Source: Mesorhizobium sp. CA8
GTDB taxonomy: Bacteria; Pseudomonadota; Alphaproteobacteria; Rhizobiales; Rhizobiaceae
Direction: 5' to 3'
Length of the DNA: 64,000 nucleotides
Assembly (NCBI RefSeq): GCF_020164955.1
Contig: NZ_JAIUHG010000016.1
Location: forward strand, 1 to 64,000
Part shown: in pieces, positions 5,841 to 39,785 of the stretch
Position numbering within the stretch: position 1 is the stretch's first letter
How the letters are laid out: each line of letters starts with the position of its first letter
The notes under the pieces: model-generated
Told to the model about the DNA's origin: nothing
The model's database searches: none
What the model saw: only the letters and a program-made list of their open reading frames with translations
Program-made: the position numbers and the translations under genes

Positions 5841-7505
<1,665 letters not shown>

Positions 7506-7524
7506 GCGCCCCTACGCATACGAG

Positions 7525-7545
7525 GCCGCCGGCTTGCCCGGCGGT
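7525..7545 (+). terminator. Hairpin between ctaD and ctaB
   Basis: CCGCCGG (7526-7532) and CCGGCGG (7538-7544) form a 7-bp GC stem with a 5-base loop, plus a G-T pair outside. There is no long T run, so it may act as an attenuator or mRNA-stability element separating the highly expressed subunits from the assembly genes. Confidence 0.4.
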
Positions 7546-7578
7546 CTTGGCCAACGGAATGATGGACTTTAAGTGCGC

Positions 7579-8523
7579 ATGGCCCTTGCCGAAGACAGAT
7601 TGATGGAGGAAGCGGGTTTTCGCATGTCGGAAGCGACCGCAGGCGATTTCTTCGCCCTCCTGAAGCCGCGCGTCATGTCGCTGGTCGTCTTCACGGCGTT
7701 TGTCGGCATGATCGCGGCGCCCGTCGCCATCAATCCGCTCATGGCGGTGATCGCCATCCTCGCAATCGCCATTGGCGCCGGTGCTTCCGGCGCGCTCAAC
7801 ATGTGGTACGACGCCGACATCGACGCCGTGATGACCAGGACCGCCGGCCGCCCGGTTCCGTCCGGCCGCGTCACCCCAGGCGAGGCGCTGAGCTTCGGCC
7901 TAGTGCTCTCGGTGCTGTCGGTGATGACGCTCGGCGTGCTGGTTAACTGGCTGTCGGCATCGCTTCTCGCCTTCACCATCTTCTTCTACGCCGTCATTTA
8001 CACCATGTGGCTGAAGCGCTGGACGCCGCAGAACATTGTCATCGGCGGCGCCGCCGGCGCCATCCCGCCGGTGATCGGCTGGGCCGCCGTGACCGGCTCG
8101 GTCAGCCTCGAAAGCGTGATCCTGTTCCTGATCATTTTCCTGTGGACGCCGCCGCATTTCTGGGCGCTGGCTCTCTTCAAGTCCGACGACTACGCCCGCG
8201 CCGGCATCCCGATGATGCCGAATGTCGCCGGCCATGCCTCGACCCGTAGGCAGATCTTTGCCTATGCGCTGATCCTGGCGCCGGTCGGCGTGCTGCCATG
8301 GGCGCTTGGTTACACCACGGCCGGCTATGGCGTCGTCTCGGCGGTCCTCGGCGCGGGCTTCGTCTGGTATGCCTGGAAAGTGCTTGCCATGACTGACGAC
8401 GACCGCGCGATGAAGCCGGCCAAGGCGCTGTTCGGCTATTCGCTGCTCTATCTCTTCGCCATCTTCGCCGCCTATCTCGTCGATTGCGTCGTCGGGCGCG
8501 CGCTCATGATGGGGGGGGTATGA
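7579..8523 (+). CDS. ctaB: Protoheme IX farnesyltransferase (heme O synthase)
   Basis: Membrane prenyltransferase of the UbiA family that adds a farnesyl group to heme B to make heme O, the precursor of heme A. The first Asp-rich motif is in [20 protein letters not shown] and the second conserved loop is [16 protein letters not shown]. About eight or nine helices, 314 residues. ATG at 7579 is taken; 7603 and 7624 are other in-frame ATGs that would still leave the domain whole. The stop overlaps the coxF start (ATGA), directly after an eight-G run. Confidence 0.93.
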
Positions 8524-8711
8524 CCGTGGCCGAAAAGAACCTCGAACTGGTCACGTTGACCGAGCGTCAGCGCAAGGCGCGCCGCAACCGCTCCATCGCC
8601 ATCGGCGTCGCGCTGGCGGCGCTCGTCATCATCTTCTATGCCGCCACCATCGTGCGCTTCGGTCACCATGGCGCGAGCCTCACCGGCTCGGGTCTGCTTG
8701 GGGGCGGCTGA
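8520..8711 (+). CDS. coxF: CoxF-like small membrane protein
   Basis: 63 residues: a charged N-terminus ([13 protein letters not shown]) and one helix ([20 protein letters not shown]). Small single-helix proteins in this exact place, between ctaB and ctaG, are annotated CoxF in rhizobia; the function is not established but an oxidase assembly role is likely. It overlaps ctaB by four bases and ctaG by one (TGATG), so translation is probably coupled at both ends. The ATG sits right behind a run of eight G, which leaves an unusual ribosome-binding region. Confidence 0.8.
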
Positions 8712-35100: not shown

Positions 35101-35622
35101 TTGAGGCAGGCGATCCAGAGTCTCAACCGCGAAGGGCGCGAACGGCTGCTGTCGGCCTTCGAGATCGTCAACGGCCATTTCCAGCGGCTGTTCTCGCACC
35201 TGTTCGGCGGCGGCACGGCCGAATTGCAGCTGATCGAGTCGGAAGATCCCCTGGAAGCGGGGCTGGAAATCCTCGCCCGCCCGCCCGGCAAGAAGCCACA
35301 GACCATGACGCTGCTTTCCGGCGGCGAGCAGGCGCTGACGGCGATGTCGCTGATCTTCGCCGTGTTCCTCACCAACCCCGCGCCGATTTGCGTGCTCGAC
35401 GAGGTCGACGCGCCGCTCGACGATCACAATGTCGAGCGCTTCTGCAATTTGATGGACGAGATGTCGAAGACCACCGAGACGCGCTTCGTCATCATCACCC
35501 ACAACCCCATCACCATGGCGCGCATGGACCGGCTGTTCGGCGTTACCATGGCCGAGCAGGGCGTCAGCCAGCTGGTCTCGGTCGATCTGCAGGCTGCCGA
35601 AGCGATGCGCGAGGCGAGCTGA
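32161..35622 (+). CDS. smc: Chromosome segregation protein SMC
   Basis: 1153 residues. Walker A GPNGCGKSN at 31-39 in the N-terminal ATPase lobe, long coiled coils at about 170-500 and 650-980 rich in Ala, Glu and Arg, a hinge near 505-640, then the ABC signature TLLSGGEQALTAMSL near 1050 and Walker B ICVLDEVDAPLDDHNVERF near 1078 in the C-lobe. With ScpA and ScpB it forms the condensin that organises and separates chromosomes. scpA/scpB are not nearby. The ATG at 32161 starts the canonical MKFSRLRLLGFKSFV. Confidence 0.97.
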   Translation: MKFSRLRLLGFKSFVEPGEFVIERGLTGIVGPNGCGKSNLVEALRWVMGESSYKNMRASGMDDVIFSGSGARPARNTAEVTLFLDNTDRTAPAAFNDADELQVSRRIEREAGSLYRINGKEARAKDVQLLFADQSTGARSPSMVGQGRIGELIQAKPQARRALLEEAAGISGLHTRRHEAELRLKGAEQNLERLDDVVGELEGQIDSLKRQARQASRFKNLSADIRKAEATLLHLRWTLAKTQEGEARSALAVATTLVGDRAAAQMAAAREQGIAAHRLPDLRDAEAAAAAAFQRLSIAKTQIEEEAGRIRSRQAELERRLQQLDADIAREERMVRDNADILERLRSEEAELNSDNAGAAEREATTRVAFEQAGATLSQSEAKLAALTAERAEAAASRHQIERSLRETAERRDRFARQLAEVDRELSDIAARISGLPDPAEKRLLVEDALARLEESEAGAIAAEQAVAEARAAENAARPPLQDARAELARIETEARTLAKILNATSGGDLFPSVLEQISVERGYETALGAALGEDLDVPLDRSAPVHWGESAIQPGDASLPEGVKSLASVVRAPAQLARRLAQIGIVDTSDGRRLQAQLSPGQRLVSRDGALWRWDGLTASADAPTAAALRLAQKNRLAELDAEAVQATRVVREAEEALARAEQTMRQASEAERNARQAGRDAQHALDAARNVLAEAEKAGGELVSRRAALDEARARIVDSHEETQAAFVEAEEMLKDAPDLGDLQLQLEQASANVSRDRATLADARAVHEGLRREAEARMRRLDAIGAERKNWLERAENASTQIAALGERKAEAEAERERLADAPDEIDAKRRALLTQLSEAEALRQAASDRLQEAENKQAELDKAATAAIQSLAEARETRVRAEERLTAADERRAEIEARIQEALNTPPHLVIKHTGLEADDPMPDMAEIERQLDRLKIERERLGAVNLRAEEEQKELSDRLETIVSEREDIIEAIRKLRQAIQSLNREGRERLLSAFEIVNGHFQRLFSHLFGGGTAELQLIESEDPLEAGLEILARPPGKKPQTMTLLSGGEQALTAMSLIFAVFLTNPAPICVLDEVDAPLDDHNVERFCNLMDEMSKTTETRFVIITHNPITMARMDRLFGVTMAEQGVSQLVSVDLQAAEAMREAS

Positions 35623-35653: not shown

Positions 35654-37366
35654 CTACTTCTCCGCAGCCGTGGCAGGCGCCGTGTAGCGCCGCCGCACGG
35701 CGTCGATCACCAGCTTGCGGCTCTCGTCGGCCGACAATGCCTTGTTCTTCTCCGCCTCAGCCGTTTCTCGGGCGAGGTCCTTGTCCCTGATCTGTTGGCG
35801 GAACCATTTGGAATAGTCGCCGGCGCGCAGATGGTACTCCCATGTCTTGTCGTCGATGCCTTCCGCCATCTGCGCGAAGATGATGAGATTGTGGGCCCTG
35901 AGGTTCATCGCCTTCCTCGGACCGGTGAAGTAGAAGCTGCCTGCCTCGTCGAGCTCGCCTTCGGCATATTTGCGGCTGTGGCGCTTCAGCGACTGGTCCG
36001 GCTCGATTGCCTTTACCGTGAACGGCTTCTTGCCGTCGTGCGGCCGCCAGAACAGTACCCGGTCGCCTTTGGGCAACGGAATGCTCTTTGGAGCCTGGAG
36101 CCCCGTTTCCTTGCAGAAGGTCTTGATCACGCCCTTCGCCTTGGGCCCAAGCGCAATCACCGCCGTCACCAGGCCGAGCGCATCGGTCGAGATTGCTTCC
36201 GGATGGACAGTAATCAGCACCGTGCCGGGCAGCTCGATCGAAAGCACGGATCGCGTATCCCCGCGTCGCTTGGGCATCAAATGATGCGCCTCGTCGATGA
36301 TCAGCCAGTGCGGCCTTGCCGTGCGATAGCGGACATTGCCGAGGCCGGGCAGCAATTCAGCGAAGAAATCGGGCCTCTCATCGACCTTCAACGCCAGGCC
36401 GTTGACCACGATATTGGTCTGCGGTTTCTCGATTAATTCCAGCAACTGTTCCTTGTTCGGTGCAGTCGAGCCGTTGCCGAGCGGCACCGCGCCTTTCAGT
36501 CCGTCATAGTCGCCCTCGGGGTCGAAAATGCAGAATTGCAAACCCTTTTCGACCAGCCGCTCGGTGAGCGCTGTGGCCAAGGTCGATTTGCCGATGCCCG
36601 AGCTGCCGGCGATCAGCACCGTCTCCATCGGCGACAAGTAAATGTCCTTGCCGCGTGAGGTCCCGAGCAGCACGCCGCGCAAGCGTTTTTTAGCCAGCAG
36701 ATGATCGTGCTTGACCAGCCTGCGGATCAGCTCCTCGACGCCCTTGCCGCGCGTTTCCTTGGTGACGAGGTCGGCGGTTTCCTTGACGGCGGGCAGCGCG
36801 TTGGCCACCGCGACGCTGCAGCCCGAAGCCCTGAGGAAGGCGTGGTCGTTTTCCGCGTCGCCAACGGCCACGACATTGTGCGGCGACAGCTTCAGGTCGT
36901 CGAGCGCTGCCGCCAACCCGGTCGCCTTGTTGATGCCGGAAGGCAGGATCATCACCGCGCCCTTGTTGAAGATGATCTCCAGCTCCAGCCCAAGCTGCTT
37001 GATGACGTCGAGCACGGTGGCTTGGTGCGGCTCCCAGGTGGCGACGATCGAGCGGCCGACGGACAGCGGCTTCACGCCGCGCTTCTTGAGCCTGTCGACA
37101 AGATCCGCGGAAGGCGAGGGGGCGATCGTGCGCTCTTCCTCGCTGGCCGGCGTGTAGACCAGCGCGCCGTTTTCGGCGACCACCTTGTCGAACAGGGAAA
37201 GTTCGGGAAACACCTCCTTGAGATCGGGCAGTTCCCGTCCGGTGACCAGGATCAGCTTGCGCCCGGATTTCTTCAGCTTCTCCAGCGCCGAGACCGTGCT
37301 GGCCGCGACCAGGCCGTCATGCGCCAGCGTGCCGTCATAGTCGGTGGCCAATGCCATGAAATACAT
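35654..37366 (-). CDS. HAD phosphatase fused to a P-loop ATPase
   Basis: 570 residues in two enzyme-like parts. Residues 1-215 are a Cof/HAD-IIB-type phosphatase: motif I DYDGTLA (9-15), ILVTGRE near 39-45 and motif IV GDAENDHAF (169-177). Residues 230-450 are a P-loop ATPase: Walker A AGSSGIGKST (253-262) and Walker B LIIDEAHH (355-362), with the helicase-like wording of HerA/DUF87-type ATPases. The C-terminal 120 residues are charged and helical. HAD-IIB enzymes usually act on phosphosugars. How an ATPase would serve such an enzyme is unknown. It converges with smc and stands alone. Confidence 0.85.
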   Translation of the reverse strand: MYFMALATDYDGTLAHDGLVAASTVSALEKLKKSGRKLILVTGRELPDLKEVFPELSLFDKVVAENGALVYTPASEEERTIAPSPSADLVDRLKKRGVKPLSVGRSIVATWEPHQATVLDVIKQLGLELEIIFNKGAVMILPSGINKATGLAAALDDLKLSPHNVVAVGDAENDHAFLRASGCSVAVANALPAVKETADLVTKETRGKGVEELIRRLVKHDHLLAKKRLRGVLLGTSRGKDIYLSPMETVLIAGSSGIGKSTLATALTERLVEKGLQFCIFDPEGDYDGLKGAVPLGNGSTAPNKEQLLELIEKPQTNIVVNGLALKVDERPDFFAELLPGLGNVRYRTARPHWLIIDEAHHLMPKRRGDTRSVLSIELPGTVLITVHPEAISTDALGLVTAVIALGPKAKGVIKTFCKETGLQAPKSIPLPKGDRVLFWRPHDGKKPFTVKAIEPDQSLKRHSRKYAEGELDEAGSFYFTGPRKAMNLRAHNLIIFAQMAEGIDDKTWEYHLRAGDYSKWFRQQIRDKDLARETAEAEKNKALSADESRKLVIDAVRRRYTAPATAAEK

Positions 37367-37591
37367 CGGTTGAACGTCTCCGAAGGCTGTTTGCCCACCC
37401 GCCAGGAGAACCCGGCCGCGTGGACCACAACGCCTGGCGGCACAAAAGGTTTAGGTCGAGCACTGGATTTGTCAGGCCGGTGCCAGGCCGTCATCGCAGC
37501 GGGGGACTCGCCCATGCAAACGAAACGGTCGCACGCCCCGGAGCCCGATCTGCCACTTGCCGCGCCACAACGTCTTCGCTACTGCCATTCC

Positions 37592-38515
37592 ATGGCAACG
37601 CACAGGCTCATCAACACCACGTGGCACAATGTCCTCGGTATGGTTGCGCCGGCGCTCACAATTGCATCCGGCGATGTGGTGACGACGGAAACGCTCGACG
37701 CTCGGGGCTTCGATAAGAACGATGTGCAACGGGCACGGGGACCAAACCCAATGAACGGCCCGATCTTCGTGACTGGGGCCGAACCTGGCGACGCCCTCCG
37801 CGTGGACATCCTGCGCATGGACCCGATCCGCTCCACCGGGTGGACGATCTCGTCACTGGCCCCAAACGTCGTCGATCCGGAGGCTGCTCGCGGGTTGCCG
37901 GCACGGGACAAAGTCACCTGGCGGATCGACCCGGAATCGCGAACTGTGGCGTTGCAGGAGCCGCCGCCGGGCCTTGAAAGCTTCATTTTGCCGGTCGAGC
38001 CTATGATTGGCTGCTTTGGCGTGGCGCCATCGATGGGCCAGGCTTTCTCTACTGCGACCAGTGCAGAAAATGGCGGCAACATGGATTACCGCGGGTTTCG
38101 GCCTGGTGCGACCGTCTGGTTCCCCGTTGCCGTGGAGGGTGCGCTCTTCTTCGCCGGCGATTGCCATGCGGCGCAGGGCGATGGCGAGATTGTCGGAACC
38201 GGGATCGAAACCTGTTTTCAAATCGAGCTTCGCTTAACCGTTGAAAAGGATAGGCGGCTAGTATGGCCTCGCGGTGAGAACGAGACTCATATTTTCTCTA
38301 TTGGCAACGCGCGCCCGCTTGATCAGGCCCTGCAGCACGCGACCACGGATATGCTTAACTGGCTGACCGGCGACTACGGCTTGTCCGCCGAAGCCGCATC
38401 CCATCTGATGGGACAGGTTGTCCGATATCACGTCGGAAACGTTTTTGACCCTGCCTACACGATGGTTTGCCTTATCGAAAAGCGATGGCTTCCGAAGCCG
38501 GCCTCCGTAGGCTGA
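37592..38515 (+). CDS. Acetamidase/formamidase family protein
   Basis: 307 residues. Family features: MNGPIFVTGAEPGDALRVDI, the PMIGCFGVAP loop, ENGGNMDYRGFRPGATVWFPV, and GALFFAGDCHAAQGDGEIVGTGIE. The last two carry the Asn, Asp and His residues of the zinc-type FmdA/AmdA hydrolases, which release ammonia from formamide or acetamide. The start MATHRLINTTWHN is used; an ATG 26 codons earlier (37514) is possible. Its neighbours (HAD-ATPase fusion, tRNA-Gln) give no metabolic context. Confidence 0.85.
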   Translation: MATHRLINTTWHNVLGMVAPALTIASGDVVTTETLDARGFDKNDVQRARGPNPMNGPIFVTGAEPGDALRVDILRMDPIRSTGWTISSLAPNVVDPEAARGLPARDKVTWRIDPESRTVALQEPPPGLESFILPVEPMIGCFGVAPSMGQAFSTATSAENGGNMDYRGFRPGATVWFPVAVEGALFFAGDCHAAQGDGEIVGTGIETCFQIELRLTVEKDRRLVWPRGENETHIFSIGNARPLDQALQHATTDMLNWLTGDYGLSAEAASHLMGQVVRYHVGNVFDPAYTMVCLIEKRWLPKPASVG

Positions 38516-38589: not shown

Positions 38590-38664
38590 TGGCTGGGGCG
38601 CCAGGATTCGAACCTGGGAATGTCGGTACCAAAAACCGATGCCTTACCGCTTGGCGACGCCCCA
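38590..38664 (-). tRNA. tRNA-Gln (TTG)
   Basis: On the minus strand the 5' end is TGGGGCGTCGCCAAGC and the 3' end CGCCCCAGCCA with the CCA encoded. The anticodon arm TCGGT-TTTTGGT-ACCGA carries TTG, and GGTTCGAATCC forms the T loop. A 7-bp acceptor stem pairs perfectly. It is 75 nt with CCA and lacks introns. Confidence 0.97.
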
Positions 38665-38740
38665 GCAGGCGGGGCATGCCGCGCTGCGCGCGGCCTTATA
38701 GGACGAGGCGGAGCAAAGCTCAATGCCGGAAAATCAACTA

Positions 38741-39785
38741 GAGTCTTTCATGTTTTGACGGAAGCGTATCCGGCGTTTTCGAAGTAGTTCTTGCATTCGG
38801 TTGCCTCGATGGTTGCGACGAGGTGGCCGATGTGGCGCCAAGTGTCCTCGACGGTGCGTTTCTGAGCCTGGCGCATCCAGTGCTTGATCTTGGCGAAGGC
38901 CTGCTCGATCGGATTGAGGGTCCGGTGAGTAGGGCGGCAGGTACCAGAGCCTGGCGCCAGCGGCCCTGATCATCTGCCTGATGGCAGCGGACTTATGGCT
39001 TCCCAGATTGTCCATGACGACGATATCGCCGGGTTCAGCACGGTGATGAGCTGCTGTTCGACATAGGCGGAAGCATTGGCCGTTGATCGGTCCGTCGAAG
39101 ACGCAAGGTGCCGCGAGCCGATCACAGCGCAGCGCGCCGAGGAAAGTCAGCGTGCGCCAGTGGCCATGTGGAGCCAGGCCGCGCAGCCGCTTGCCCTTCG
39201 GCCCCCAGCCGCGCAGGGGAGCCATGTTGGTCTTGATCCAGGTCTCATCGATGAAGACCAAGCACTGCGGATCGAGGCCGGCCTGCCAGGATCGCCATCG
39301 CTGGCGCCTGCGGGCAATATCGGCGCGTGCCTGCTCAAGGGCGAACAGCGTTTTTTTTAAAGCTCAGGCCTTCGCGGCGCAGGAACTGCCACACTGCGTT
39401 GTGCGAGACCTTGACCCCACGAGCGGCCAACTCGTCCTTCAGCCGATGCAGAGTCAATTCACAGGTCTGATTGATCCGCTCCACGATGAAGGCACGGTGC
39501 GGCTCCAGCACCCTCTTGCGACGCCCGCCCATTTTGCCAGGCGCTATCGAGCCGGTCGCCTGATGACGCTGCAACAACTTCACCGCCGCCGAAACCGAAA
39601 TGCCGAACCGCTTGGCGGCCGACCGGCGGCTCTCGCCGCTCAAAACTGCCGCTACAACCCGCTCGCGAAGATCATCGGAAAGAGGTCGAACCATCTGATG
39701 CTGGCCTCCAATCCAGCCAGCATCTTGAATCACAAATCCAACCGAGCGGGAATCCCTTCCGATTCTGTCGAGCGGTGAAACGCTC
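38741..39785 (-). mobile_element. IS630-family insertion sequence, degenerate
   Basis: 1045 bp flanked on both sides by TA (38739-38740 and 39786-39787), as expected for IS630/Tc1-mariner insertion. The imperfect ends compare as GAGTCTTTCATG on the left and GAGCGTTTCACC on the right read inward, with further matches (GAC-GAA) inside. It carries one transposase gene in three frame segments. It lies between tRNA-Gln and the GDP-deoxyhexose genes. Confidence 0.82.
38748..39694 (-). pseudogene. IS630 transposase, two frame breaks
   Basis: Starts MVRPLSDDLRERVVAAVLSG (helix-turn-helix part, RRSAAKRFGISVSAAVKLL). Break 1 is a run of eight A on the coding strand (39351-39358): seven A would read [12 protein letters not shown] straight through. 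The middle part holds [23 protein letters not shown] and [10 protein letters not shown], the first two Asp of the DDE triad. Break 2 is an extra base in the GGG at 38918-38920, after YLPPYSPD; correcting it restores [19 protein letters not shown] with the catalytic Glu and the end [13 protein letters not shown]. The 947-nt span minus two bases equals 315 codons. Poly-A frameshifting is known in this family, but the second break removes the Glu. Confidence 0.88.

Follow-up and report, generated by a model that had tools for sequence, protein, structure and literature searches.

A HAD-type phosphatase fused to a HerA-like ATPase and a DUF5752-like domain across many bacterial phyla: a candidate trehalose enzyme

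Described relatives of the fusion

The protein analysed here is encoded in a 64,000-nucleotide stretch of DNA from Mesorhizobium sp. CA8 (the window). It joins a HAD-IIB phosphatase domain, a HerA/FtsK/VirB4-type ATPase domain and a C-terminal domain that resembles DUF5752. OtsB (PF02358) is also a member of the HAD superfamily and, on genome comparison, likely has the same role as one clade of the family, which contains another fusion subtype (sub2, with 57-59% identity to the window protein) and relatives that consist of the HAD part alone (HAD-only). However, the window gene, which belongs to subtype 1, is not matched by PF02358 and has added ATPase and C-terminal domains. Saci_0016 of Sulfolobus acidocaldarius is a HAD protein outside the known trehalose-6-phosphate (T6P) phosphatases, and the purified protein is described as having T6P phosphatase activity (PMC7688234). 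Compared by its description only, it is similar to the proposed function of the family in being a non-canonical HAD that acts as a T6P phosphatase, but it is described as a 27 kDa monomer and is thus too small to contain the ATPase (PMC7688234).

The HerA/FtsK/VirB4-type ATPases, including those of SIR2-HerA and DUF4297-HerA, share the P-loop core, the Walker motifs and the fold with the window ATPase. They differ in that the window family has a HAD domain at the N-terminus, and a nuclease or defence partner was not seen. The C-terminal domain can be aligned to repeat two of DUF5752 (PF19027), but in the window protein it scores below the Pfam cut-off, and it is fused rather than stand-alone. 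In T. tenax, the synthase activity of a TPS-TPP fusion is described as requiring a glycosyltransferase partner, which gives a precedent for the control of a fused trehalose enzyme through assembly into a complex (PMC3634074). There it is the synthase and not the phosphatase that depends on the partner, and the accessible part of that paper describes no HerA-type ATPase (PMC3634074).

No paper on a fusion of HAD, HerA-type ATPase and DUF5752-like domains was found in the open literature searched. The fusion has the look of a trehalose enzyme that has gone unrecognised and is possibly controlled by energy state, and it occurs across many bacterial phyla. OtsA without OtsB leaves a gap in the pathway, and the family is a candidate to fill this gap in at least one genus. 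The solved structures that matched the ATPase fold here come from DNA translocases, conjugation ATPases and anti-phage complexes, and a small-molecule phosphatase is a puzzling passenger on such an ATPase. If the ATP level or the binding of a glycosyltransferase controls the phosphatase, it would be a new tie between compatible-solute synthesis and energy state.

Architecture, conservation and spread

The fusion is a single open reading frame (ORF) of 570 aa on the minus strand, with its ATG at 37366 and no internal stops (Table 1); the first plus-strand frame across the same positions is interrupted by stops. The HAD-IIB domain was matched above the cut-offs by Pfam Hydrolase_3 (E 7.5e-32) and NCBIfam HAD-SF-IIB, and the ATPase by Pfam DUF87, the HerA central domain (residues 250-331, E 9.3e-9, 36.1 bits vs a cut-off of 23.2). 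These matches bore out the sequence-only reading of a HAD-IIB phosphatase fused to a HerA/DUF87-like ATPase in one protein, and the motifs of both enzymes are intact as it had claimed. A DPEGDY motif is situated between Walker A and Walker B. That reading was right about the HAD and ATPase parts, but its two-part protein left out the minus strand and a third conserved domain at the C-terminus.

Table 1. Features of the fusion gene in the window (coordinates in the window; residues of the 570-aa protein)
Feature	Coordinates	Strand	Residues	Basis
HAD-IIB / HerA-like ATPase / DUF5752-like protein (window copy, subtype 1)	35654..37366	-		570 aa
HAD-IIB phosphatase domain	36701..37366	-	about 1-222	Hydrolase_3, HAD-SF-IIB, Foldseek 1wr8
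HAD motif I DYDGT	37328-37342	-	9-13	sequence motif
HAD motif IV GDAEND	36845-36862	-	169-174	sequence motif
HerA/FtsK/VirB4-type ATPase domain	36002..36700	-	about 223-455	DUF87, Foldseek and VIA HerA matches
Walker A GSSGIGKST	36581-36607	-	254-262	sequence motif
Walker B LIIDEAHH	36281-36304	-	355-362	sequence motif
DUF5752-second-repeat-like C-terminal domain	35657..36001	-	about 456-570	PF19027, hhalign, weak 4cso

The gene looks to stand alone, and it is outside any trehalose operon. Its convergent neighbour is a 1153-aa ORF that ends at 35622 and that we take, by eye, to be SMC. On the other flank, a plus-strand ORF listed at 36701-38515 runs in the opposite direction. In the records of six annotated relatives the gene is labelled only as a HAD-type hydrolase, and thus the ATPase is invisible to users of the annotation. 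Two minus-strand frames at 38734-39733 of the window resemble one split transposase gene by eye, and a tRNA-Gln lies near them at 38590-38664.

The whole protein was modelled by AlphaFold2 from 49 sequences with a pLDDT of 88.7 and a pTM of 0.76. Foldseek matched this model to HAD phosphatases (1wr8_B, E 8.9e-18, TMt 0.84). Since the top 50 matches were almost all HAD-type, the tail was folded separately (pLDDT 88.7, pTM 0.72). The Foldseek matches of the tail model included HerA, VirB4, TcpA and the STIV B204 packaging ATPase. HerA was at the top in VIA, with 9x1m (Z 20.9, rmsd 3.0 over 225 residues) and 4d2i (Z 20.5, rmsd 3.2 over 224 residues); the VIA matches span residues 1-247 of the tail model and thus say nothing about the C-terminal domain. 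By structure prediction the Walker motifs are within a HerA-type P-loop fold, and therefore the check on whether they might fall outside such a fold did not refute the fusion. HerA itself has a HAS-barrel at its N-terminus. In the window protein the HAD domain occupies this position: it fills residues 1-218 in the Pfam, NCBIfam and fold matches, and thus, as judged indirectly from these extents, no room for a HAS-barrel was found before the P-loop at residue 254.

The C-terminal domain has a conserved stretch at residues about 456-565 (SFYFxGP...NLRAxNL...HLRxGDYSxWFR). PF19027 matched it weakly in the window protein (14.9-15 bits, cut-off 23), and matched 32 of the 36 C-terminal domains of the family at E <= 1 (window included; best 2.4e-5). 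A profile-to-profile comparison in hhalign paired the domain with repeat two of six DUF5752 proteins (probability 90.8, E 1.2e-6). Two structures matched its profile below 0.01. One is 4cso, named 'OrfY, transcription factor', a weak match (E 4e-4 for the whole chain, 0.045 for the best stretch) which we presume comes from Thermoproteus tenax. The other, 7rdr, is a repeat protein whose match is a sum of small matches.

In 49 aligned fusions, the HAD residues D9, D11, K147, D170, N173 and D174 and the ATPase residues G254, G259, K260, D282 and D358 were invariant. In a separate set of 20 relatives, L064 had E at D358. Motifs were counted in 107 full-length rows from 119 loci, with L095 (frame break) and L144 (contig end) dropped. 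HAD motifs I and IV and Walker A were present in all 107, and the DPE-G/S-D/E-Y/F motif was present in 105. The strict Walker B pattern was found in 101, the six misses being five DETH and one DQAH (L103), and on reading 106 have a Walker B. Random loss of one part's key residues, which had been named as evidence against the fusion, was therefore not what the homologues show, with a single degenerate ATPase (L103) among the 107. L103 (Ensifer sp. IC4062, match 7001-8698) has IIDQAH at Walker B and DAKGDY at the DPEGDY motif, while its HAD motifs are intact, and it is possibly a natural ATPase-dead fusion. L224 (G755) and L225 (G691), both Mesorhizobium-type, have a frame change near the HAD/ATPase linker that gives two overlapping, near-complete frames; this may be a real split, a pseudogene or a sequencing error.

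A scan of one genome per species (84,980 species) gave at least 595 stretches, and at least 518 of them encode a relative at E <= 1e-3, though not necessarily a fusion. From the species-scan matches listed, 80 loci were retained, of which 78 run full-length in a single frame; the other two are L095 and L144. The relatives include those from Mesorhizobium, Sinorhizobium, Aminobacter, Cyanobacteria, Planctomycetes, Acidobacteria, Nitrospira, Nitrosomonas, Actinomycetes and Melainabacteria. The survey of breadth that the sequence-only reading had proposed thus places the fusion in many bacterial phyla, with a patchy presence. In the order sample, 26 of 249 genomes had a relative at E <= 1e-20: 21 have the fusion (G269 has a HAD-only gene as well), two have HAD-only genes alone, and three have a distant HAD of 39% identity. 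These 39%-identical HADs (L045-L047) were rejected as family members, being on a separate long branch and from genomes with OtsB. The phylum sample contained a relative in 11 of 398 genomes. In the plasmid collection, 11 of 28 matching records cover at least 80% of the window protein at 43-58% identity; they come from Sinorhizobium, Aminobacter, Agrobacterium, Synechococcus, Nonomuraea, Paraburkholderia and Caballeronia. The fusion is neither a product of chance nor a local artefact, and it represents a widespread, unnamed three-domain family.

The HAD-only relatives are 59-62% identical to the HAD part of the fusion. In a HAD tree of 93 rows from 119 loci (window included, near-identical Mesorhizobium rows thinned, L095 and L144 omitted, and L101 and L168, one locus with an identical HAD, counted once), they fell in three places. 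Four Mesorhizobium HAD-only genes adjoin the Aminobacter fusions (100/92), a Nostoc plasmid gene is nested in the cyanobacterial fusions (100/91), and the pair from G122 and G110 is on a branch without resolved placement. Therefore, there were at least two losses of the tail, each as a unit, and perhaps a third. Sub2, Aminobacter and the Mesorhizobium HAD-only genes grouped together (99/83). No full-length tail without a HAD was found in the 249 order genomes (eight best candidates scored per genome): all 21 full-length tail matches sit in HAD-containing frames, and the remaining matches are incomplete, most of them within frames some 500 aa long. A separate gene for the ATPase tail was thus rejected. 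As for whether the two parts are ever separate neighbours, the full-length tail was seen only fused to a HAD, and HAD-only copies exist. The HAD domain is the core of the family, to which the ATPase is a dispensable addition.

Trehalose genes and stress-type promoters

The window genome has a GT4-GDE-OtsA-OtsB operon. PF02358 did not match the window gene in a six-frame search at E <= 0.001, and its sole match in the window genome is on another contig. In all four Mesorhizobium genomes with a HAD-only gene, this gene heads an operon of GT4, GDE (amylo-1,6-glucosidase-like) and OtsA. The Aminobacter fusion is divergent to GT4-GDE-OtsA genes, with no OtsB within the operon region. The Mesorhizobium sub2 fusions are not beside the trehalose operon. 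Among 35 chosen genomes, PF02358 was undetected in exactly the five HAD-only genomes.

In a genus sample of 146 genomes, OtsB (PF02358) was undetected in 24, of which G788, G789, G790 and G793 were identified by difference and the other 20 named directly. It was undetected in 4/4 HAD-only genomes, 9/11 sub2 genomes and 11/50 genomes with neither, and in none of the 81 genomes with subtype 1 only (these include the broken frames G691, G755 and G760 and the fragment G773). Sub2-or-HAD-only genomes thus had no detectable OtsB in 13 of 15 cases (Fisher p 1.8e-10, which ignores kinship), and OtsA is kept in all 13. The other 11 OtsB-less genomes are 10 without OtsA and G694, which has a 181-residue piece only. 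The six OtsB-less genomes that have the window subtype all carry sub2 or HAD-only as well (G269, G706, G751, G758, G790 and G793); the sub2 copy of G790 was assembled from two contig ends. All nine OtsB-less sub2 genomes have the GT4-GDE-OtsA block, with no OtsB at E <= 1e-3 in the 14-17 kb of sequence fetched, and GDE is incomplete or interrupted in L211, L212 and L217. OtsB is directly after OtsA in all seven chosen OtsB-containing genomes (L177-L179, L219-L222); since these were picked for having OtsB, they are position controls and not an independent test.

In an OtsA tree of 33 rows, the OtsB-less label required four changes, two of them forced by well-supported branches, and Aminobacter, the HAD-only group and the sub2 group were separate. 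Independent OtsB losses are few. Two sub2 genomes (G749 and G767) retain OtsB, and G749 is nested in the OtsB-less sub2 group. G110 and G122, which carry HAD-only genes, lack both OtsB and OtsA, and thus HAD-only as a universal OtsB substitute was rejected. In the order sample, OtsA is present in 21/21 fusion genomes vs 112/228 others (p 9e-7), a link that may partly reflect genome size and kinship. Nine genomes of this sample have OtsA without OtsB, and only G269 carries the family, so in the eight with no relative at E <= 1e-20 OtsB is missing for other reasons or has other replacements. These eight are G141, G170, G196 and G260 (one genus) and G047, G190, G225 and G245; they may have another T6P (or related) phosphatase, or an OtsA-like gene with a different product. 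A relative of GT4, TreT, GDE or OtsA was found in the fetched flanks of 5/55 representative fusion loci (L061, L065, L116, L138 and L140). No single conserved operon partner stood out in these 55 loci with a composition-based caller and inspection, and clustering of neighbour ORFs was dominated by shadow ORFs.

Stand-alone DUF5752 genes give another connection to trehalose. Among 36 fusion genomes, five have six such genes and 31 have none, and in 5/6 loci (L160-L164) the gene adjoins a TreT-type trehalose synthase gene. One of these neighbours is from Nitrospira and the other four are 50-54% identical to it; the Nitrospira one matches a solved 'trehalose phosphorylase/synthase' (E 1e-122) and TreT (1e-106). 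At one DUF5752-TreT locus, OtsA is on the opposite side. This arrangement suggests a role in trehalose metabolism for the uncharacterised DUF5752 family, and makes trehalose-linked docking or control by the C-terminal domain of the fusion plausible. In a Nitrospira locus, DUF5752 and TreT genes (L138 958-2854) precede the fusion by about 4 kb.

For R. etli, GGAAC-N16-CGTT has been given as the EcfG motif (PMC3892343). Trehalose synthesis is described as being under EcfG control in B. diazoefficiens, and in Bradyrhizobium trehalose made by the T6P route is controlled by the general stress response and is required for withstanding osmotic stress and infecting soybean (PMC8092242). A strict motif (GGAAC-N15-18-CGTT, <300 bp upstream) was found at 10/10 sub2 loci, which are near-identical copies, and at 8/8 Sinorhizobium/Ensifer fusions, with a spacing of N16/17 at both. 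A loose motif (GGAAC..GTT) was upstream of 4/4 Mesorhizobium HAD-only genes and 2/2 Aminobacter fusions. The motif was absent upstream of the window copy, and upstream of the operon GT4 genes there were no strict matches and one loose match in 28 rows. Overall, 130 distinct upstream regions had 18 strict and 35 loose matches; in the control, random segments of the same loci with coding sequence included, the rates were 1.1% strict and 3.0% loose.

Proposed function and alternatives

Our best reading is that the family is a non-canonical phosphatase for T6P or a similar substrate, in which the ATPase and the C-terminal domain would regulate or scaffold the enzyme. We hold it to be narrowly probable that this is a HAD-IIB sugar-phosphate phosphatase family which acts on T6P in one clade, where it replaces OtsB, with the ATPase as a switch or for oligomerisation and the C-terminal domain for docking. 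The HAD domain would perform the chemistry. In the clade of sub2, Aminobacter and Mesorhizobium HAD-only genes the substrate is most likely T6P, and judged from the genomes the phosphatase core probably took over T6P dephosphorylation there. Of the substrate types that the sequence-only reading had offered, a phosphorylated metabolite is thus supported by the OtsB/OtsA comparison and the operons, with T6P as the best candidate. The ATPase is most likely an ATP-dependent switch or oligomerisation module, a role that we favour over a DNA motor, and it may gate the phosphatase; the HAD-only relatives retain the phosphatase without it. The C-terminal domain most likely docks or regulates a trehalose glycosyltransferase, because stand-alone DUF5752 is encoded beside TreT. 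Where subtype 1 is alone, OtsB is always present, and therefore subtype 1 is not the needed T6P phosphatase in those genomes. For this reason we infer the substrate of the window subtype from kinship only, as the same as or closely related to that of its sister clade. More tentatively, these proteins might be pan-bacterial ATP-gated T6P phosphatases that form a HerA-type ring with HAD in place of the HAS-barrel and recruit a trehalose glycosyltransferase through the DUF5752-like domain, having displaced OtsB more than once and shed the ATPase on entering the trehalose operon.

The family might instead be a phosphatase of broad or other sugar-phosphate specificity (phosphoglycolate, sucrose-phosphate or glucosylglycerol-phosphate), often stress-induced, with T6P as the specialisation of one clade and a different substrate for the window protein, which is possible but somewhat doubtful. 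The window sequence is closer to phosphoglycolate-type HADs than to OtsB. Its best NCBIfam models are of phosphoglycolate and sucrose-phosphate types, both under their curated cut-offs (TIGR01487, phosphoglycolate phosphatase of archaeal type, 108.9 bits vs an equivalog cut-off of 122.75), and 1wr8, the best fold match, is named phosphoglycolate phosphatase. The coexistence of subtype 1 with OtsB (81/81) also fits this explanation, as do 14/42 wide-scan fusion genomes without OtsA, which include 6/6 cyanobacteria and several MAGs. However, OtsA in every fusion genome of the order sample and a C-terminal domain whose stand-alone relatives adjoin TreT argue for the trehalose connection. A link to phosphoglycolate through an Anabaenopsis neighbour (L117), which we take to resemble a glycerate kinase, was dropped because its NCBIfam kinase matches were all below the cut-offs.

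It is very improbable that the ATPase and C-terminal parts form a HerA-type translocase that works on nucleic acid or defends against phages, with HAD as the effector, as in SIR2-HerA or DUF4297-HerA. Anti-phage HerA complexes are among the fold matches and PADLOC gave four matches (best mad8, E 8.9e-12), but all four span no more than residues 240-302, around the P-loop, and a defence system was rejected. The nearest neighbours contain no defence genes by eye, stress-type promoter motifs are present, and the HAD part persists without the ATPase in a sugar-metabolism operon. A nucleic-acid end as the substrate, another early suggestion, found no support, since the adjacent genes, judged by eye, have to do with sugars or stress or are unrelated, and the defence matches are through the P-loop region only. 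Three viral-contig stretches matched a pattern and none was confirmed as a relative, with a single-protein query that reaches close relatives only; a viral origin was rejected. Similarly, we see little chance that the window carries a redundant or drifting paralogue alongside OtsB, one without a distinct function. This would fit the 50/146 same-genus genomes with no match at E <= 1e-40 and the 4/96 matched genomes with only broken frames or a fragment (G691, G755, G760 and G773), but it is at odds with the conservation of the HAD motifs and Walker A in every full-length relative examined and of Walker B in all but one.
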